Shown: positions 16,264 to 24,144 of the stretch, one piece after another
How the letters are laid out: each line of letters starts with the position of its first letter
How positions within the stretch are numbered: the stretch's first letter is position 1
Source of the DNA: Nodosilinea sp. P-1105
Lineage (GTDB): Bacteria > Cyanobacteriota > Cyanobacteriia > Phormidesmidales > Phormidesmidaceae
Direction: 5' to 3'
DNA length: 64,000 nt
Assembly (NCBI RefSeq): GCF_012911975.1
Contig: NZ_SMDQ01000014.1
Coordinates: forward strand, 1-64,000
Notes under the pieces: generated by a model
What the model saw: only the letters and a program-made list of their open reading frames with translations
Databases searched by the model: none
What the model was told of the DNA's origin: nothing
Position numbers and translations under genes: made by a program

Positions 16264-16399
16264 TTCATAGGTTTGGTCAGGATAAGTTACCCTACAGGCT
16301 CCACAAAAATAAGCTTGGTATGTGGCTGATTCTGTGATACGTTTATTTACTGTTGGTTTGCGAAACGCAGTCTAGGACTGCTAGTAGCAACTAAACTCT

Positions 16400-16471
16400 G
16401 GCTCAGTAGCTCAGTGGTAGAGCAGGGGACTCATAAGCCCTTGGTCGCGTGTTCAAATCACGCCTGAGCCA
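16400..16471 (+). tRNA. tRNA-Met (anticodon CAT), elongator type
   Basis: 72 nt cloverleaf. Acceptor GGCTCAG pairs with CTGAGCC plus discriminator A. The D-arm has AGCTCAGTGGTAGAGC, the anticodon loop reads CTCATAA (CAT), and the T-arm is GCGTGTTCAAATCACGC. The first acceptor pair is a normal G-C, so this is not an initiator. A CAT tRNA modified to read isoleucine AUA is less likely but not excluded. CCA is not encoded; a T-run follows at once. Confidence 0.93.
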
Positions 16472-16516
16472 TTTTTTTGAAGTTTGCTCTGTAATGTCTT
16501 GAGTGTAAACAGTGGG

Positions 16517-17230
16517 CTACAGGTATGGCTCTAGGGGTTGTGCTGCGTAGTGCTGCGCTAGGGCTTGCAACAAGGTTTCAGTACAACTTGTCCAGCCCAC
16601 GATGCCGCCCTGGGCCCGCACCATCTCCAGAGTAGCCCGCTTAAACTCAGGGAAATAGCTCTCGGTGGCGTCTTCCACCAGTAGGCACTCGTAGCCGCGA
16701 TCGTTAGCTTCGCGCATGGTGGTCTGTACGCAAACCTCGGTGGTCACCCCAGTAATGACTAGATGGGTAATGCCCTGTTTGATCAGGTGGTGTTCTAGGT
16801 CGGTGGCAAAAAAGGCCCCCTTACCTGGCTTGGGAATTACCACTTCCCCCGGCAGCGGTGCCAGCTCAGGGATGATGCCGTTGCCCGGTTCCCCCAGCAC
16901 CAGGATGCGACCCATGGGGCCAGGGTCGCCTATTTTGAGGGCGCTAGTGCCGCGATCGCGCTTCGACGATGGACAGTCAGACAGATCGGGCAAATGTCCT
17001 TCTACGGTCTGAAAAATCGGCAGATTGTAGCGGCGAAACGCCTCCTGTAACGCCTTAACGTTAGAGATGATGGCCCGCAGCAGACTGACATCGTTGCCCA
17101 GGGCATCGCCAAAGCCGCCGGGCTCGATGAAGTCCCGCTGCATGTCGATGATCAGCAGCGCCAGGCCGGTGGCGGGCAGGGGGTAGGGGTAGGGTTGGGC
17201 GGGTAGAGGGGTGGTGGGCATGGTGGGCAT
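16517..17230 (-). CDS. Isochorismatase-fold cysteine hydrolase, paralogue of the neighbouring biuret-hydrolase-like enzyme
   Basis: 237 residues. The catalytic triad of the family is intact: Asp29 ([10 protein letters not shown]), Lys134 ([14 protein letters not shown]) and Cys167 ([20 protein letters not shown]). It aligns along its length with the 19633-20313 enzyme, sharing [31 protein letters not shown] and NDRGYECLL, but differs around the presumed substrate loops ([30 protein letters not shown]). The two are old paralogues that may take different substrates, for example triuret versus biuret; that is inference. Last gene of the BMP-transporter cassette. The start is uncertain because ACCATGCCC is tandemly repeated here (ATGs at 17230 and 17221). 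Confidence 0.85.
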
Positions 17231-17276
17231 GGTGGGTGATGGGGTGGATGGGTGGGGTGACGGGGAGGAAACGTAG

Positions 17277-17298
17277 GGGCGGACCCGTGTGTCCGCCC
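17277..17298. repeat. Palindromic element, GGGCGGAC/GTCCGCCC variant
   Basis: 22-bp palindrome with arms GGGCGGACnC and GnGTCCGCCC around a CGTG-like centre. It is one of six related copies located only between or at the ends of genes of the 16.5-24 kb cassette. Confidence 0.8.
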
Positions 17299-17343
17299 TT
17301 AGCGGGAAACGACGACAAAAATGAATGAAGGGCGATGCCGTAG

Positions 17344-17365
17344 GGGCGGATCCGTGTGTCCGCCC
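17344..17365. repeat. Palindromic element, second GGGCGGA variant
   Basis: Nearly identical to the copy at 17277-17298 and in the same orientation. Its last base is the first base of the cupin gene's stop triplet as read on the plus strand, so the element directly abuts the coding end. Confidence 0.8.
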
Positions 17366-17709
17366 TAGGGTTCGATGTGGACAGGTTTGGCCCAGATGGC
17401 GAGGACGATGCAGCCCTCGGGGCTGTGGACGGTGTGGCGGGTGTCGGGGGGATTAACGACCAGGGTGCCAGCGGAGTAGGTGCCGTTCTCGTCGGACTGA
17501 CTGCCAGAGAGCACCAGAATGTGCTCGAAGCCGGTGTGCAGGTGGTAGGGCACGGTGGCTCCCGGCTGGTACCGCAGCAGGGCGGCAGCGGCCCCCTCCG
17601 GTTCGGCAGGGTACAGCCGATGGATCTCCACCCCAGGGCGAAACGGCTCCCAGGGTAGGTTTGGGTCGAGGGCGATCGCCTTCAGGTCATTCAAAACAAT
17701 CGGTTCCAT
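17365..17709 (-). CDS. Small cupin-domain protein
   Basis: 114-residue single-domain cupin (ChrR/anti-sigma-like subtype). Conserved metal-site text: [16 protein letters not shown] near residue 55-70 (two His and a Glu) and [12 protein letters not shown] near residue 90 (the third His). Cupins bind a metal and either catalyse small-molecule reactions or sense ligands. In this cassette, between the ABC ATPase and the first hydrolase, it could be a ureide-handling enzyme or a ligand-binding accessory; no function can be fixed. Start ATG 17709 (MEPIVLNDL) fits the fold; an upstream GTG would add 16 residues. Confidence 0.8.
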
Positions 17710-17747
17710 CAAGACTCTCCCATTGGTCAACCGCTTCTCGCTAGGGC

Positions 17748-17767
17748 GGGCAGACACGTGGGTCTGC
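17748..17767. repeat. Palindromic element GGGCAGAC…GTCTGC, copy 3
   Basis: Arms GGGCAGACnC and GGGTCTGC around CGTG, slightly truncated on the right. It is in the gap between the ABC ATPase and cupin genes. Confidence 0.75.
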
Positions 17768-17800
17768 TACGACCCATCCACTCCCTACCCATCCACTCCC

Positions 17801-19342
17801 CTAATGTCCCGCCATCCGCTGCCCCAGCACCTTGATATCCGCCTTGGCGGTGGCGCTTTCGTAGACCAGGTCGCCGTCGCTGATCACCACAATGCGATCG
17901 CTCAGCTTCAGCAACTCATCCAGGTCTTCGCTGACCAGTAGCACCGCCACACCGCGATTGCGGGCGGCGAGGATTTGGGTGTGGATGTAGTCTACGGCGG
18001 AAAAGTCGAGGCCAAAGCAGGGGTTGGCGGCGATCAGCAGGTTGATCGTAGTGGACGACAGCTCGCGGGCCAGCACGGTGCGCTGCACGTTGCCGCCAGA
18101 GAGGTGACCGACGGGGGTATCCACCGACGGCGTTTTGACCGAGAACACCTGCACCAGGCCCTCGGCCATACGGCGAATATTGCTGAGGCTGAGCAGCCCG
18201 CCCCGCTTGGCCTGGGGCGGTTTGTCAAAGGTGCGCAGGGCCATGTTTTCGGCCACGCTCATGTGGGGGACGCAGGCGTTGCGCAGGGGTTCTTCGGGCA
18301 GGGTGTAGACCTGGTGCTGGGCCATTTCCTTGCGGGTGGACTGGTAGGGCTCTCCATTGACCAGAATGTCGCCGCTGGAGCGGGGGCGCTGCCCGGCCAG
18401 CACCTCCACCAGCTCCCGCTGGCCGTTGCCCGAGACCCCGGCAATGCCGACGATTTCGCCACTGTTGACCATCAGGTTGATACTGCGGACGGCGGGCAGA
18501 CCATTGTCGCGATCGGCACAGAGGGCCTTGAGTTCCAGCACCGGGTGAGGGTCGGGGATGGCGACTTTCTCGACCGGGGTGGGTTCCTGCTTCTCGCCCA
18601 GCATCATGTGGGCCATGTCGGCTACAGTGAGGTCGCGCACGTAGCCGTGGCCCGCTAGCTTGCCCTTGCGCAACACGGTAACTTCGTCGGTAAAGGCCGT
18701 CACCTCCCGAAACTTATGGGAGATCATCAACACGCTCAGGTGCCCGGCGGTGACTTCTTCGCGCAGCAGGCCCAGCACCTCGTCGGCCTCGTCGGGGGTG
18801 AGCACCGAGGTGGGCTCGTCGAGAATCAGCACCCGGCTGTTGAGGTAGAGCTGTTTGAGAATTTCCAGCTTTTGCTTTTGGCCCGCCGCCAGCTGGGCGA
18901 TGGGGGTGCGCAGGTCGATCTGAAAGGGGGAGGTGGCCATGAAGGCTTCCAGGCGATCGTACTCCTCCTTCCAGTTGATCCACTGGGGGCTGTCGTAGCG
19001 GGAGAGCACCAGGTTTTCGGCCACGGTCATGGCGGGCACCGAGGTGAAGTGCTGGTAGACCATGCCAATCCCGAAGTGGTGGGCATCCTTGGGGCTGGCG
19101 ATGGTGCGGGAGTGTTTGTCGATCAACACATCGCCGGAGGTGGGGGTATAAAAGCCCATGATGCATTTCACCAGGGTGCTTTTACCCGCCCCGTTTTCCC
19201 CCAGCAGGGCATGGAAACTACCGGGGGTGACTTTGATCGACACCTGGTCGAGGGCGGTGAAGGTCCCGAAGCGCTTGGTCAGGTTGATCACTTCGAGCTC
19301 GGGGGGGGTGGTTTTGGTTTGGGTGGCGGTGGCGGTTTGCAT
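17801..19342 (-). CDS. BMP-type ABC transporter ATP-binding protein (two NBDs)
   Basis: 513 residues with two nucleotide-binding domains in tandem, as in MglA/NupA/YufO importers. NBD1 (about 15-245): Walker A GENGAGKSTLVK, signature AAGQKQKLEIL, Walker B VLILDEPTS. NBD2 (about 265-505): degenerate Walker A GVSGNGQREL, signature LSGGNVQRTVLAREL, and NLLIAANPCFGLDF instead of a canonical Walker B. This asymmetry is normal for the family. It powers import through the two permeases at 20467 and 21597 with the BMP lipoprotein at 22909. The start is ATG 19342 (MQTATATQTKT); the open frame continues 153 nt upstream only through minisatellite DNA. Confidence 0.92.
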   Translation of the reverse strand: MQTATATQTKTTPPELEVINLTKRFGTFTALDQVSIKVTPGSFHALLGENGAGKSTLVKCIMGFYTPTSGDVLIDKHSRTIASPKDAHHFGIGMVYQHFTSVPAMTVAENLVLSRYDSPQWINWKEEYDRLEAFMATSPFQIDLRTPIAQLAAGQKQKLEILKQLYLNSRVLILDEPTSVLTPDEADEVLGLLREEVTAGHLSVLMISHKFREVTAFTDEVTVLRKGKLAGHGYVRDLTVADMAHMMLGEKQEPTPVEKVAIPDPHPVLELKALCADRDNGLPAVRSINLMVNSGEIVGIAGVSGNGQRELVEVLAGQRPRSSGDILVNGEPYQSTRKEMAQHQVYTLPEEPLRNACVPHMSVAENMALRTFDKPPQAKRGGLLSLSNIRRMAEGLVQVFSVKTPSVDTPVGHLSGGNVQRTVLARELSSTTINLLIAANPCFGLDFSAVDYIHTQILAARNRGVAVLLVSEDLDELLKLSDRIVVISDGDLVYESATAKADIKVLGQRMAGH

Positions 19343-19500
19343 GGGAGTAGGGGGTAGGGGGTGGATGGGTGAGGCGTGGATGGGCGTAGGGGCAGACCCA
19401 CGTGTCTGCCCGGATGTGGATGGGTGGATGGGTGGATGAGATGGAGGTGATGGTAGGGAGAGGGATGGGGAAGGTGGGGGAGATGGAGGGTGCATTCGCG
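19343..19500. repeat. GGGTGGATG-type minisatellite between ATPase and hydrolase genes
   Basis: Runs of GGATGGGTGGATG and related units, plus a palindromic element at 19390-19411. It is open in the frame of the downstream ATPase, but the Pro/His/Ser-only translation is not protein-like. Confidence 0.8.
19390..19411. repeat. Palindromic element GGGCAGAC…GTCTGCCC, copy 4
   Basis: Perfect-arm copy in inverted orientation relative to 17748, with centre CCACGTG. It is embedded in the minisatellite upstream of the ABC ATPase start. Confidence 0.8.
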
Positions 19501-19632
19501 GCCTGCAATCCTGCGCGACTCCTCATCACTTTTCCCTGTGGGCCGCAATGCACCGATTTCGGTATCGAGAAATCCGCAGGGTATGAGCCGTAGGTGCCGT
19601 AGGGTGGGCACTGCCCACCAATTTCCTTGGGG

Positions 19633-20313
19633 CTAAACCAATGCCTCGATCAGCGCCTCCGAATGGGCTACGGCGCCAAAGACGCCGCCCTGCATTTTGA
19701 CCATCTTTAGGGCCGCCAGGTGGTTGCCGTAGTCGGTAGCCCCGGTGCAGTCCGAGAGCAGCAGGCACTCGTAGCCGCGATCGTTGGCGTCGCGCATGGT
19801 GGTGTGGACGCAGACGTCGGTGGTGATGCCGGTGAGGATGATGTTGCGGATGCCCCGGCGGGTGAGGATCAAGTCCAGGTCGGTGGCGTAGAAGGAGCCT
19901 TTGCCGGGTTTGTCGATCACCACCTCGCCGGGTAGGGGTTGCAGTTCAGGGATGATTTCCCAGCCGGGTTCGCCCCGCACCAGAATGCGGCCACAGGGGC
20001 CAGGGTCGCCGATGCCTGCGCCAATCTGGCGCGATCGCCACTGTTTGTTTTCCGGCAGGTCAGCTAAATCGGGGCGATGGCCCTCGCGGGTGTGGATGAT
20101 GGTGAAGTGGCCATCGCGCATCACCCCCAGCAGCTTGGCAATCGGTTCGATGGGGGCGCGGGTGAGGGAGAGGTCGTAGCCCATCTTGTCCACATAGCCA
20201 CCGATGCCGCAGAAATCGGTCTGCATGTCGATTACAATCAGCGCCGTATTCTCGGGCCGCAGATCGCCGTTGTAGGGGTAGGGGTAGGGTTCAGCATCAA
20301 CAAAAATTCCCAT
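19633..20313 (-). CDS. biuH: Biuret amidohydrolase-like isochorismatase-fold enzyme
   Basis: 226-residue cysteine hydrolase. Triad Asp29 ([12 protein letters not shown]), Lys135 ([14 protein letters not shown]) and Cys168 ([19 protein letters not shown]) falls at a constant offset of 7 from the published Asp36/Lys142/Cys175 of rhizobial biuret hydrolase. The flanking text also matches my memory of that enzyme very closely ([67 protein letters not shown]). Reaction: biuret + water to allophanate + ammonia, in the cytoplasm. It sits inside a BMP-type importer operon. Start ATG 20313; 29 upstream residues in the open frame come from palindromic repeat DNA. Confidence 0.85.
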
Positions 20314-20346
20314 AGTGGTTCTCCAATCACAGAAAAGGCAGTGCCA

Positions 20347-20419
20347 TAGGTTGGGTAGAGCGTAGCGGCACCCAACAAATCTGCCGCTGTTGGGTTGCAC
20401 TGCGTTTCACCCAACCTAC
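20347..20419. repeat. GGTTGGGT/ACCCAACC palindromic repeat
   Basis: Outer arms AGGTTGGGT (20348) and ACCCAACCT (20409), with internal CACCCAAC/GTTGGGT. It resembles widespread cyanobacterial intergenic repeats. It fills the gap between permease and hydrolase genes. Confidence 0.8.
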
Positions 20420-20466
20420 AGGGCGAGACACTTCTACAAAATGCTCTAAAGGACGTTGGCAAACTG

Positions 20467-21396
20467 TTACTCCTGAGCCTGCCCCAGTGCTCCCGGCGCG
20501 CCAGTTAACGTGCGCTTTGGCGAGCAGGTGATCACCATGATCAACAGCGTCAAAATGTAGGGCGATGCGTTGAACAGGTAGTAGTAGGCGTCAATACCCA
20601 CCGACTGCATCGCCGGGCCGATCGCCTGGGCACCGCCAAATAGCAGCGATGCAAACAGGCATTGAATTGGATTCCATCGGGCAAAAATTACTAGGGCGAC
20701 GGCCATGAGACCCTGGCCGCTAGAGATGCGCTCTGACCAGCTGCCAGGGTAAAACAGCGATAGCGAGGCCCCGCCGATACCGGCCAAAAAGCTGCCCGCC
20801 ACAATGCTGGCCATGCGCACCTTAAAGATCGAGATGCCCATGGCGCGGGCGGCGTCAGGGCTATCGCCCACGGCCCGCACCAGCAGCCCCCAGCGGGTGG
20901 AGCGAAAGAACCACTGCATCAAAGGCGCGATCGCCACCCCCAAAATAAACAGCGGGCTAATCCGCAACGCCGACTCCAGCTGGGGAATCTGGGTCCACCC
21001 CGCCAGGGAAAAGGTGGGCAACTGGGGGGCCGAGGGCTGGATGAACGGCTTGCCCAGGAAAAAGGCCAGGCCGCTGCCAAAGATGATCATGGCAATGCCC
21101 ACCGCCACGTCATTGACCCGGGGCTGCTGGGACAGCCAGCCGTGGATCAGCCCGAGAAACAGGCCCGCCACCCCCGCTGTCACCACCCCCAACCAGGGCG
21201 ACCCGGTCAGGAAGGAGATGGCGTAGGCGCTCATGGCACCCATCAGCAGGGTGCCTTCCAGACCCAGGTTGATCTTGCCGCTCTTTTCGGTCAGGCATTC
21301 CCCCAGGCTGACAAACAGGAAGGGCACGCTGCCCCGCAGGGTACCGGCGACAATGGCCAGGGGTACGCCCCACCAGCCCAATGCTTCTGTAGCCAT
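20467..21396 (-). CDS. BMP-type ABC transporter permease, subunit 2
   Basis: 309-residue permease of the BPD_transp_2 family, with eight to ten hydrophobic segments. It has the characteristic SLGECLTEKSGKINLGLEGT near residue 30 and the EAA-like coupling region AVGDSPDAARAMGISIFKVR near residue 175. It pairs with the 21597-22694 permease as the heterodimeric channel typical of nucleoside/purine-type BMP importers (YufP/YufQ arrangement). ATG start at 21396, preceded on the coding strand by AGAGAGAACC rather than a strong Shine-Dalgarno. Confidence 0.9.
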   Translation of the reverse strand: MATEALGWWGVPLAIVAGTLRGSVPFLFVSLGECLTEKSGKINLGLEGTLLMGAMSAYAISFLTGSPWLGVVTAGVAGLFLGLIHGWLSQQPRVNDVAVGIAMIIFGSGLAFFLGKPFIQPSAPQLPTFSLAGWTQIPQLESALRISPLFILGVAIAPLMQWFFRSTRWGLLVRAVGDSPDAARAMGISIFKVRMASIVAGSFLAGIGGASLSLFYPGSWSERISSGQGLMAVALVIFARWNPIQCLFASLLFGGAQAIGPAMQSVGIDAYYYLFNASPYILTLLIMVITCSPKRTLTGAPGALGQAQE

Positions 21397-21490
21397 GGTT
21401 CTCTCTCTCCGTAAATAAAACTTTCGCTAGGGACAAGATCGGGGCTTCAACCAGCCGCTACCTATCCACCCTCGCCACCATTCCCCGCCA

Positions 21491-21586
21491 GGGCAGACAC
21501 ATGGGTCTGCCCCTACACCCACCCATCCACCCTACCCTCCGGGAAGCCGCTCCGCGTCTACCACCCATCCACCCATCCACCCTTCA
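21491..21586. repeat. Composite repeat, copy A (palindrome + GCCGCTCCGCG block + minisatellite)
   Basis: GGGCAGAC palindrome (21491-21512), then CCTACCCTCCGGGAAGCCGC and TCCGCGTCTACC, then iterated CCCATCCA. Nearly the same order and sequence recur at 22874-22966. This copy lies just downstream of the permease-1 stop, outside coding sequence. Confidence 0.88.
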
Positions 21587-21596
21587 CCCTTCACCC

Positions 21597-22694
21597 CTAA
21601 ACCAGCGTCGCCGTTGCCACCGGCGGTGTCGGCCGCACCTTGGGGGGTCGCGCCTTAAAGATCGGCAGCTTGCCGTAGAGGGAGTCGCTGTAGAGTACCG
21701 ACAAAAACACAATCCCCTGGAACACCATCACCGTGGCATCGGGTAGGCCGTGGGCCCGCTGGAGAATGCCACCGCTGGCCAAAATCCCCCCCAGCAGTAG
21801 GGCCACCAGGCTGGCGGCGATCGGGTTGTGGCGGGCAATAAAGGCCACCAGCACGCCGCCGTAGCCGTAGTTGGCATTCAACGATTCATTGGCGCGACCG
21901 TGGACGGCGGCCACCTCGACCATCCCCGCCAGCCCGGCGCAGGCCCCGCCCAAAAAGCAGATCGCCAGGGTGAGCTTGCCCACGGGCAGACCGGCTACCC
22001 GCGCCGCCCGCACGTTGCCCCCGGCGGTACGGGCCGCAAAGCCAAAGGTGGTGCGCTGAATTAAGAAATAGGCCAGCCCGCAGGCCACCAGCCCCAGCAC
22101 CAGCCCGTAGTGCACCCGACTGCCGGGCAGAGTACCCAACATGTGCTCCGACGGAATCGGAAAGGTGGAGGGCTTATTTAGCGAGGCCGGGTCCCGCATC
22201 GGGCCATTGACCATCTGGTTGAGGAAGGCGATCGCAATGTAGTTCATCAGCAGGCTGCTGATGGTCTCATTCACCGCCCGGTAATGGCGCAGGGCACCGA
22301 CAATGGCGATCCAGAGGCCGCCCGCCAGAATGCCTGCCAGGGCCATGCCCAACTGCACCCCAGGGGTGGGCAGACCCCAGCCCCCCAGGGTGAGGCCCCC
22401 AGCCACCGCCGCCAGCCCCCCCAGCACCAGCGCCCCCTCATTGCCGATAATCACCAGCCCCAGCCGGGCGGGCAGGGCGGTACAGAGGGCGCTCAACATC
22501 AGCGGCGACGCCTGAATCAGGGTGTTCTGAAACGAACTCCAACTGCCAAAGGCGGCCCGGTAAATGGAGTGGTAGACCCCAAACGGGTTCGCCCCCGCCA
22601 GGGCACAAAACAGGCCAAAGATTACCAGGGCCGCCAGCAACGCCCCCAGGGGGATACAGATTTTTTCCAGTAGACTCCGCCAGCGATCGCTCAT
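21597..22694 (-). CDS. BMP-type ABC transporter permease, subunit 1
   Basis: 365-residue BPD_transp_2 permease with about ten hydrophobic segments. Recognisable pieces are LMLSALCTALPARLGLVIIG near residue 65, NEGALVLGGLAAVAGG next to it, INYIA-type LLMNYIAIAFLNQMVNG near residue 150, and RTAGGNVRAARVAGLPVGKL near residue 225 (ATPase-coupling loop). The companion permease follows 200 bp downstream. Start ATG 22694, with AGGAGCAAAACC just upstream on the coding strand. Together the two permeases, the ATPase and the BMP lipoprotein form a full importer. Confidence 0.9.
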   Translation of the reverse strand: MSDRWRSLLEKICIPLGALLAALVIFGLFCALAGANPFGVYHSIYRAAFGSWSSFQNTLIQASPLMLSALCTALPARLGLVIIGNEGALVLGGLAAVAGGLTLGGWGLPTPGVQLGMALAGILAGGLWIAIVGALRHYRAVNETISSLLMNYIAIAFLNQMVNGPMRDPASLNKPSTFPIPSEHMLGTLPGSRVHYGLVLGLVACGLAYFLIQRTTFGFAARTAGGNVRAARVAGLPVGKLTLAICFLGGACAGLAGMVEVAAVHGRANESLNANYGYGGVLVAFIARHNPIAASLVALLLGGILASGGILQRAHGLPDATVMVFQGIVFLSVLYSDSLYGKLPIFKARPPKVRPTPPVATATLV

Positions 22695-22873
22695 GGTTTT
22701 GCTCCTTCGTTCACTGATGTTTTGGCGCAGGGGTTGTGGTGTTGGTCAATCGGTAGAGATAGAGGGTTGGTGAGCCGTGAAGGGGATGGTGGGCAAAGCC
22801 CACCCTACGTCAGTGGCGAATTGGTTTCAGGCGGGATTTCGGGCGGTGGCGAATTGGTTACAGGCGGGGTTGG

Positions 22874-22989
22874 GGGCAGACACGTGGGTCTGCCCCTACG
22901 CATCCACCCTACCCTCCGGGAAGCCGCTCCGCGTCTACCACCCATCCACCCATCCACCCATCCACCCCATCCACCCACACTCCCCATCC
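22874..22989. repeat. Composite repeat, copy B, overlapping the BMP gene 3' end
   Basis: GGGCAGAC palindrome (22874-22895), the GGGAAGCCGCTCCGCGTCTA block and CCCATCCACCC/CCACACTCCCC units. The same composite occurs at 21491-21586. Here the block from 22909 rightward is translated as the C-terminus of the BMP-family protein and supplies its TAG stop. Confidence 0.88.
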
Positions 22990-24144
22990 ACCCACACTCC
23001 CCATCACCCCTTCCGCCAGCCAGTTCATCTGCTCCAGCTCCACTGCCGTCTGGCCCAGTTCCTTGCCGCTTTCAATCACGGTCTGGCCCTGGTTGTCTTT
23101 GATTTCGCCTTTGTAGATCACCAGGTTGCCCGCCACTAGCTCAGCTTTGGCCGCTTCTGCTGCTTGCTGGGCTTCGGGGCTCACCGCCGGGCCAAAGGGA
23201 GAGAGCTTTAAAAAGCCATCCTGGAAGCCGCCCCGCACCAGGTGGGGGATGCCGCCGTTCATCAAGGTTTTGCCTTCCAGTATTTGAGTCATATAGTTGG
23301 TGTAAACATTCGACCAGTCCCACTCGGCCCCAGTCAGGTAGCCCTGGGGGGCCAGTTCCGCCTGGTTGGCATGGTAGCCGGAGGCAAAAATGCCGCGCCG
23401 CTCGGCGGTTTCGATCACCACCTTGGGGCTGTCCACGTGGCAGGTGAGCACGTCGATGCCCTGGTCGGCCATGCTGTTGGCCGCTTCGGCCTCACGTACC
23501 GGGTCGGCCCAGTCACCGGTAAAGATCACCTGGGTGGTGACACTGGGGTCGATGGTGCGGGCACCGAGGGTAAAGCTGTTGACGTTGCGCAGCACCTGGG
23601 GAATCGGCTTGGCGGCGATGAAGCCCAGGCGCTTGCTGTTGGTGGCGTGGGCGGCGACGATGCCGGCCACGTACTGGGCTTCGTCGATGTAGCCAAAGTA
23701 GCTGCCCACGTTGTTGGGGTGGACGCCTTCTTCGTACAGCCCACCGCAGTGGAAGAACTGCACGTCGGGGAATTCCTCCGCCAGGGCCAGCACATGGGGG
23801 TCGAAGTAGCCAAAGGAGGTGGCAAAGATGGCGGTGGCTCCATCGATGTCAATCATGCTACGCATGGTCTCCTGGACGGCGTTAGTCTCGGGCACACTGG
23901 CCTCCTCGGAGACCTTGACCCCATCTATGGCCTCAAGGCTGGCGGCCCCTTCGGCGTGGGCCTGGTTATAGCCGTAGTCATCCCTGGGTCCGACATAGAT
24001 AAACCCAGCGGTGATGTCATTGTTGCTAGCGGTCGTGGAGGTGTCGCCGCAGGCGCTGAGCTTCACCGTGAGCCCAAAAGCCCCGGTAGCTAGCAATCCC
24101 CGGATGGCCTGGCGACGGGTCACCTGAAACATCGGACTCCGCAT
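22909..24144 (-). CDS. BMP-family ABC transporter substrate-binding lipoprotein with repeat-encoded tail
   Basis: 411 residues from ATG 24144, chosen because CTAAGGAGAACCCCC precedes it. The N-terminus has VTRRQAIRGLLATGAFG and a lipobox-like LSAC with Cys32, so a Tat-type lipoprotein is likely. The body is a PBP1-type BMP fold: FIYVGPRDDYGYNQAHAEG near residue 48, NNVGSYFGYIDEAQYVAGI near 140, DVLTCHVDSPKVV near 225 and GAEWDWSNVYTNYMTQIL near 270. It captures the ligand outside and delivers it to the permeases; the ligand is probably a ureide or purine-like nitrogen compound. The final 25-30 residues (Gly/Trp/Val/Asp-rich, after NWLAEGVMG) are encoded by minisatellite DNA. Confidence 0.9.
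   Translation of the reverse strand: MRSPMFQVTRRQAIRGLLATGAFGLTVKLSACGDTSTTASNNDITAGFIYVGPRDDYGYNQAHAEGAASLEAIDGVKVSEEASVPETNAVQETMRSMIDIDGATAIFATSFGYFDPHVLALAEEFPDVQFFHCGGLYEEGVHPNNVGSYFGYIDEAQYVAGIVAAHATNSKRLGFIAAKPIPQVLRNVNSFTLGARTIDPSVTTQVIFTGDWADPVREAEAANSMADQGIDVLTCHVDSPKVVIETAERRGIFASGYHANQAELAPQGYLTGAEWDWSNVYTNYMTQILEGKTLMNGGIPHLVRGGFQDGFLKLSPFGPAVSPEAQQAAEAAKAELVAGNLVIYKGEIKDNQGQTVIESGKELGQTAVELEQMNWLAEGVMGSVGGWGVWVDGVDGWMGGWVVDAERLPGG

Follow-up and report, generated by a model that had tools for sequence, protein, structure and literature searches.

Bacterial use of the urea oligomers triuret and biuret has been described in Herbaspirillum BH-1, which has a pathway of the triuret hydrolase TrtA (structure 6xix), the biuret hydrolase BiuH and the allophanate hydrolase AtzF (PMC7948467). 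The TrtA studied there makes carboxybiuret, which decays to biuret, and BiuH makes allophanate, the usual substrate of AtzF; both species covered by that paper are said to have operons with TrtA, BiuH and AtzF (PMC7948467). Spontaneous loss of CO2 has been described for both intermediates, giving biuret from carboxybiuret and urea from allophanate (PMC3944691, PMC6219798). In nitrifiers, trtA and biuH occur together with bmpA-nupABC, an ATP-binding cassette (ABC) importer labelled as a "nucleoside" importer (PMC12625717). Plasmid pRL10 of Rhizobium johnstonii/leguminosarum 3841, the strain that yielded a BiuH crystal structure, carries a divergent GntR gene followed by genes for BMP, permease, permease, formamidase, BiuH, AtzD, ATPase, TrtA and cupin, and its cassette genes are annotated as isochorismatase family hydrolase, cysteine hydrolase and cupin. 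A cassette of this kind was found in the cyanobacterium Nodosilinea sp. P-1105 (a draft genome of 195 contigs), within the first 64,000 nucleotides of contig NZ_SMDQ01000014.1, the whole stretch analysed here and termed the window. The kind of cassette is known, and this new example of it is well supported; in one respect, the way the pathway ends, it differs systematically. Judged from sequence, it is very probably a unit for scavenging nitrogen from urea oligomers, comprising an importer, TrtA and BiuH, followed by conversion of allophanate to urea and the action of urease, with a stand-alone AH_C protein as a possible helper.

The preliminary description of this locus had proposed seven minus-strand genes in one direction at 16517-24144, encoding a full BMP-type ABC importer, two isochorismatase-fold hydrolases and a cupin. 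All seven were found at these positions, and each component is backed by Pfam matches. The transcription order is BMP-type binding protein, permease, permease, BiuH, two-domain ABC ATPase, cupin and TrtA, and ATG is the start codon of all genes except the cupin open reading frame (ORF), which has GTG. The same description had placed the BiuH catalytic residues Asp36/Lys142/Cys175 in one hydrolase, had offered a separation of that protein from proven biuret hydrolases as grounds for refutation, and had suggested that the diverged second hydrolase takes a related substrate such as triuret. The residue match is real on alignment, the first hydrolase groups with the proven enzymes by cut-off, residues and tree, and the second bears out the suggestion as a TrtA by its residues and tree group.

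Residues were compared at 14 positions, the catalytic residues and the sites that differ between the TrtA and BiuH consensus (PMC7948467), in an alignment of 166 sequences (161 locus ORFs, in which some proteins occur twice, three references and the two window proteins); in these rows, the TrtA pattern was found 95 times and the BiuH pattern 55 times, and 16 rows had another. A maximum-likelihood tree was built from 80 sequences, comprising the three references, the two window proteins, outliers, chosen loci and 60 random remaining ORFs. The window BiuH has the isochorismatase fold (PF00857, 147.8 bits, cut-off 27) and exceeds the NCBIfam equivalog for biuret amidohydrolase (NF050097, 419.1 bits, cut-off 370). 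Its best solved relatives are BiuH chains of the 6azo type (6azo at 2.4e-122), and it equals 6azo at 14/14 positions, keeping the Asp/Lys/Cys triad together with Tyr, Tyr53, Asp173, Ser, Thr and Val218. In the tree, it falls in a BiuH clade of 27 members that includes 6azo and 6xjm, with ultrafast bootstrap (UFBoot) support of 99. By these measures the protein is most likely a biuret hydrolase.

The window TrtA shares the fold (PF00857, 138.8 bits against the same cut-off of 27) and lies under the BiuH equivalog cut-off (252 vs 370 bits). Its best solved relative is 6xix, at 293 bits, compared with 210 bits for the best BiuH chain. It equals 6xix at all 14 positions, including the triad D24/K129/C162 and the specificity residues F35, N41, A134, E160, Y187, Q202 and I205, and the TrtA group that holds it and the reference splits from BiuH and other isochorismatases with UFBoot 100. 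By its residues and tree group it is a predicted triuret hydrolase, an enzyme expected to be nearly inactive on biuret. The chemistry itself has been shown for the homologues, and it is assigned to the window proteins by residues and tree.

Related hydrolases occur elsewhere in the genome. A second TrtA, 67% identical, lies on contig C1 (L123:8079-8780) beside a quinolinate phosphoribosyltransferase gene, and departs from the 14-position pattern at two specificity positions only, with His for N41 and Thr for I205; L058 and L020, which stand closest to it in the tree, have the usual residues there. A more distant isochorismatase on contig C134 (L002) has changed pocket residues and is possibly another ureide hydrolase. 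On plasmids, TrtA matches at E 1e-40 or better, a limit that lets in BiuH-like genes too, came from 284 records, 243 of them 60-80% identical; by genus, 133 were from Rhizobium, 78 from Escherichia and 15 from Klebsiella.

Recurrence of the cassette was counted in the best 80 loci of the TrtA search, where many loci without the full cassette are short contigs. The genes for BMP, both permeases, BiuH, ATPase and TrtA stand together in 27 of the 80, and since gene content and order recur in this way in relatives, the cassette is not a chance arrangement. In 22 loci, many on short contigs, trtA occurs without importer genes or biuH; where biuH is missing from the trtA locus, it was found elsewhere in the genome in 12 of 14 cases. 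The cupin was detected in 29/80 loci and in 17 of the 27 full cassettes. The TrtA loci include Cyanobacteria, Proteobacteria, Nitrospira and metagenome-assembled genomes of Verrucomicrobiota type. Loci of cyanobacteria, of proteobacteria and of other groups keep the order of the cassette, as does pRL10.

Table 1. Features of the urea-oligomer cassette, with positions in the window.
Feature	Coordinates	Strand	Basis
trtA, predicted triuret hydrolase (isochorismatase-like cysteine hydrolase)	16517..17230	-	6xix match, residues, tree
Cupin of ChrR-like Cupin_7 kind, accessory gene, candidate enzyme	17365..17709	-	PF12973
Importer ATPase, two ABC domains	17801..19342	-	PF00005, 159 bits, 2 stretches
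biuH, predicted biuret hydrolase	19633..20313	-	NF050097 equivalog, 6azo match, residues, tree
Importer permease 1	20467..21396	-	PF02653 (BPD_transp_2), 130.4 bits; precedes biuH in relatives
Importer permease 2	21597..22694	-	PF02653 (BPD_transp_2), 103.7 bits
BMP-type substrate-binding protein	22909..24144	-	PF02608, 135 bits, cut-off 24.1
Palindromes and CCATCCA-type repeats	17262..22910	.	Pattern search of window

Among the described systems, pRL10 has counterparts of all seven genes of the window cassette, and their order differs only in the place of the cupin, which on the plasmid comes after trtA; the GntR regulator, formamidase and AtzD of pRL10 are all absent from the window cassette. 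Formamidase stands upstream of biuH, as on pRL10, in 9/80 loci (L059, L070, L077, L081, L085, L088, L096, L103 and L109; the L070 member scores 575 bits, cut-off 406). No match to AtzD, the cyanuric acid hydrolase, was found in the Nodosilinea genome with the PF09663 model, which matched 0/14 control genomes yet 25/399 genomes elsewhere. The window TrtA and BiuH share all 14 tested residues with the Herbaspirillum BH-1 pathway (PMC7948467), but unlike BH-1 the genome has no AtzF over cut-off. The biuH contigs of nitrifiers show the same pairing of BMP importer, BiuH and TrtA; the difference is that ammonia-oxidising and comammox bacteria carry atzF with the cluster (PMC12625717). The earlier proposal, a widened role of BMP importers through this pairing, does not stand as new, because pRL10 carries the same cassette and the nitrifier clusters are already in print. 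The main text of PMC12625717 contains no occurrence of cyanobacteria, phytoplankton are named in passing in PMC7948467, and the consulted part of the BiuH crystal-structure paper mentions gene clusters and no transporter (PMC5806882). A literature search, outside which most subscription papers lay, returned none on biuret or triuret use in cyanobacteria and none joining biuret, cupin and isochorismatase.

The best solved relative of the window BMP protein is AtzT (6pi5, 205.8 bits). In AtzT, guanine or 2-hydroxyatrazine lies between Tyr45 and Trp194, and Ser97, Phe98, Glu165 and Asn220 form bonds to it (PMC6834077). The window protein has the same aromatic clamp and keeps Ser97 and Phe98, but differs at Glu165, which is Gln, and at Asn218/Asn220, which are His/Asp. 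The latter change proves nothing, because the purine binder 3s99 has it too. The guanine-bonding Glu165 is kept in none of the 37 readable cassette BMP proteins, five non-cassette proteins and one cut-off sequence having been set aside; Gln replaces it in 31 and Pro or Thr in 6. A ligand other than purine is therefore likely from the pocket residues, and gene order and pocket both fit an importer of biuret and triuret, which we infer as its cargo. None of the cut-offs of the putative B6 ABC importer families NF047927-NF047930 was reached (44.4/400, 146.1/465, 158.1/400 and 416/670 bits), and the ATPase lies below the cut-off of every NCBIfam family among the best 25 of its 188 matches. An importer of triuret alone was considered for four loci with importer and trtA and without biuH, whose pocket has Trp at one position and Pro at another. 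It was rejected, as three of these four genomes hold biuH elsewhere and G060 combines the same pocket with both hydrolases; the Trp/Pro pocket looks like a clade feature.

The cupin matches PF12973 (Cupin_7) at 74 bits (cut-off 27). Its ORF of 130 amino acids (17365-17757) opens with GTG, and the ATG at 17709 is the likelier start and fits the relatives. His56, His58, Glu62 and His92 are invariant in all 29 aligned cassette cupins and form the pattern His-x-His-x3-Glu...His, common among metal-binding cupins. The solved folds nearest to the confident AlphaFold model of the protein (predicted local distance difference test score, pLDDT, 93.8) are the ChrR cupin, 3ebr and other uncharacterised cupins, dioxygenases and a dimethylsulfoniopropionate (DMSP) lyase. 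As a ChrR anti-sigma factor, which would also carry the anti-sigma domain, the protein falls short: it scores 53.5 vs 124.5 bits on TIGR02451 and matches only positions 95-201 of this 216-position profile.

The end of the pathway is where the cyanobacterial cassettes differ. AtzF was searched for in the Nodosilinea genome and in the 18 genomes or records behind 20 loci (8 proteobacterial, 9 cyanobacterial and the pRL10 record). It exceeds its cut-off in all 8 proteobacterial TrtA genomes and in none of the 10 cyanobacterial ones, Nodosilinea included; the best match in the Nodosilinea draft is GatA, at 223 bits vs a cut-off of 511. The pRL10 record, which covers the plasmid only, gave no AtzF match, even though both species of PMC7948467 are said to have AtzF in such operons. 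By contrast, a stand-alone AH_C protein (PF21986), corresponding to the C-terminal domain of AtzF only, occurs in 18/80 loci, 16 of them cyanobacterial, and in Nodosilinea on contig C121 (3223-3582). A count from neighbour-gene clustering (30/109 loci with an AH_C-like gene) was set aside for the stricter one, because that cluster probably includes full-length AtzF among its proteobacterial members.

In a phylum sample of 386 genomes, much of it outside the cyanobacterial class, AH_C matches were found in 33. By comparison with a cassette-linked member they split into a close subfamily (at least 149 bits) and distant ones (at most 85 bits); this scoring covered 30 of the 33 genomes, and the other three (G070, G116, G255) score below 100 bits where subfamily members reach at least 127. 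TrtA-type and BiuH-type matches occur together in 14 of the 386, on different contigs in G133 and G170 and with BiuH broken into two frames in G215. Of these 14 genomes, 12 carry the close AH_C subfamily, as against 1 among the remaining 372 (p = 6e-20; p = 1e-15 against about 160 same-class genomes, itself an estimate), figures that ignore shared ancestry. In five of the 12 (Nodosilinea, G011, G170, G193 and G346), AH_C lies on another contig or more than 1 Mb from trtA/biuH; therefore, close linkage alone does not explain the co-occurrence. The one exception outside the 14 is the cyanobacterium G233, which has neither TrtA nor BiuH matches and where AH_C stands last in an operon (L219:10056-13129) that by eye resembles a NitT/TauT-type importer. 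Urease is encoded at C1:101831 in Nodosilinea and was found under all 26 genome handles tested, of which 24 are distinct; G398 and G402, two of the nine cyanobacterial genomes searched for AtzF, are apparently G005 and G193 of the phylum sample, their urease places being identical.

In the proposed mechanism, the BMP-type binding protein and the ABC importer would take up triuret and biuret, TrtA would convert triuret to carboxybiuret with release of one ammonia, and carboxybiuret would lose CO2 to give biuret, which BiuH would split into allophanate and ammonia. Since no AtzF was found in the searched cassette-bearing cyanobacteria, allophanate would most likely be decarboxylated to urea, either spontaneously or with the help of the stand-alone AH_C encoded elsewhere in the genome, and urease would finish the pathway by acting on this urea. 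The AH_C protein is thus a possible decarboxylase, and the cupin may serve the carboxybiuret step. Several observations weigh against this scheme. BMP proteins close to that of the cassette bind purines (PMC6834077). The AH_C association has been computed as if the genomes were independent of one another by descent, and its close subfamily is missing from two of the 14 genomes (it is absent from G060, and G215 contains a fragment). Urease is widespread (206/362 phylum genomes; 154/174 same-class among genomes listed), and its presence says little because it is common in cyanobacteria anyway. Finally, the usual binding site of NtcA, GTAN8TAC, is absent upstream in the window.

For the importer, the purine affinity of its relatives suggests another reading, in which its cargo is a purine or a cyanurate-like ring and the two hydrolases act on internal products of urate oxidation, not on imported oligomers. 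The binding of guanine and 2-hydroxyatrazine by AtzT (PMC6834077) and the 22 loci with trtA apart from importer genes and biuH, some on short contigs, would fit it. However, the replacement of Glu165 in all 37 readable BMP proteins, the missing cyanuric acid hydrolase match and the joint retention of importer, biuH and trtA in 27 loci speak against it, and this reading is very improbable. For the cupin, the candidate role is the carboxybiuret decarboxylase step, as a TrtB-like enzyme. The nitrifier set comprises bmpA-nupABC, biuH, trtA, trtB and atzF (PMC12625717), and in the betaproteobacterial locus L106 the cupin fills the leftover place; comammox contigs are said to lack trtB (PMC12625717), and the Nitrospira locus L114 shows no cupin. 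The four invariant metal ligands also count in its favour. Against this, the TrtB family could not be established from the literature searched, the cupin is present in only part of the loci and of the full cassettes, and its nearest folds include a sigma-factor regulator and enzymes of other kinds alongside uncharacterised cupins. The genes flanking AtzD in Burkholderiales, examined for TrtB, were mixed. The TrtB-like role is accordingly put forward as tentative and rather unlikely.

For the stand-alone AH_C, three roles may be weighed. The tail of a yeast allophanate hydrolase is reportedly responsible for decarboxylation, and the cyanobacterial protein could be a dedicated N-carboxyurea decarboxylase acting on both carboxybiuret and allophanate, which would funnel triuret and biuret via urea to urease; as a specific function this is doubtful. 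It is possible, though less likely than not, that AH_C is no decarboxylase and travels with the cassette in some other part, structural or gamma-glutamylcyclotransferase-like, while allophanate decays purely chemically. AtzF without its C-terminal domain is as active as the whole enzyme when assayed with biuret, and a possible oligomer-organising role has been given to that domain (PMC3944691); the Nodosilinea protein also has a weak GGACT match just under cut-off (22.5 vs 22.8 bits). Yet the strong co-occurrence even in the five genomes where AH_C is remote, and the 36 positions invariant in 25 sequences, speak for a dedicated role. A split allophanate hydrolase, in which an AtzE-family amidase would provide the amidase step and the stand-alone AH_C the C-terminal half, and which would release ammonia from allophanate directly and not through urea, seems quite improbable. 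Such an amidase is encoded on contig C185 of Nodosilinea (694 bits, cut-off 425.75), and in Phormidesmis priestleyi (G396, L220:6241-8281) an amidase 59% identical to it directly adjoins a stand-alone AH_C. Of the 14 genomes that combine TrtA and BiuH, eight have a member of the family, but six gave no match, and the substrate of AtzE in Pseudomonas ADP is 1-carboxybiuret, not allophanate (PMC6219798). AtzE as the missing step was rejected on frequency as well: the 8/14 are enriched over the 55/372 of the phylum sample, but not significantly against the same-class estimate (p = 0.14).

The spaces between the cassette genes hold further elements. Palindromes of the form GGGC(A/G)GAC..GTC(T/C)GCCC stand at 17277, 17344, 19390, 21491 and 22874, spread over four of the cassette's six gaps between genes, and all matches to the two palindrome patterns in the 64-kb window fall inside the cassette. 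Similar patterns were found in none of seven other stretches of the genome, and the close relative L044 has four such palindromes around its cupin. At the end of the BMP gene (22909-22989), the last 26 codons exceed four Nodosilinea-type homologues and enter a CCATCCA-type repeat, as though the stop codon had been lost to it. Immediately downstream of trtA lies a plus-strand tRNA-Met (16399-16472).

The NtcA motif GTAN8TAC occurs 13 times in 11 of 32 upstream regions, compared with 4.9 expected from shuffles. In the 400 bases that precede bmp it is found in 7/19 cyanobacterial loci vs 30/310 other upstream regions (p = 0.002, or 0.025 once two of three close relatives are dropped). By eye in the alignment, the window has only GTG-N8-TAC, at the start of the divergent gene. 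Control of the cassette by NtcA is suggestive only.

The cassette would place the use of triuret and biuret in a major group of photosynthetic organisms, and it predicts which cyanobacteria could live on the impurities of urea fertiliser. It also raises one concrete question, namely how allophanate is handled in these cells without allophanate hydrolase. If AH_C is indeed a decarboxylase, it would stand in for the AtzF route that proteobacteria use, and a free-standing protein, so far with no more than a family name taken from the tail of allophanate hydrolase, would gain a function.

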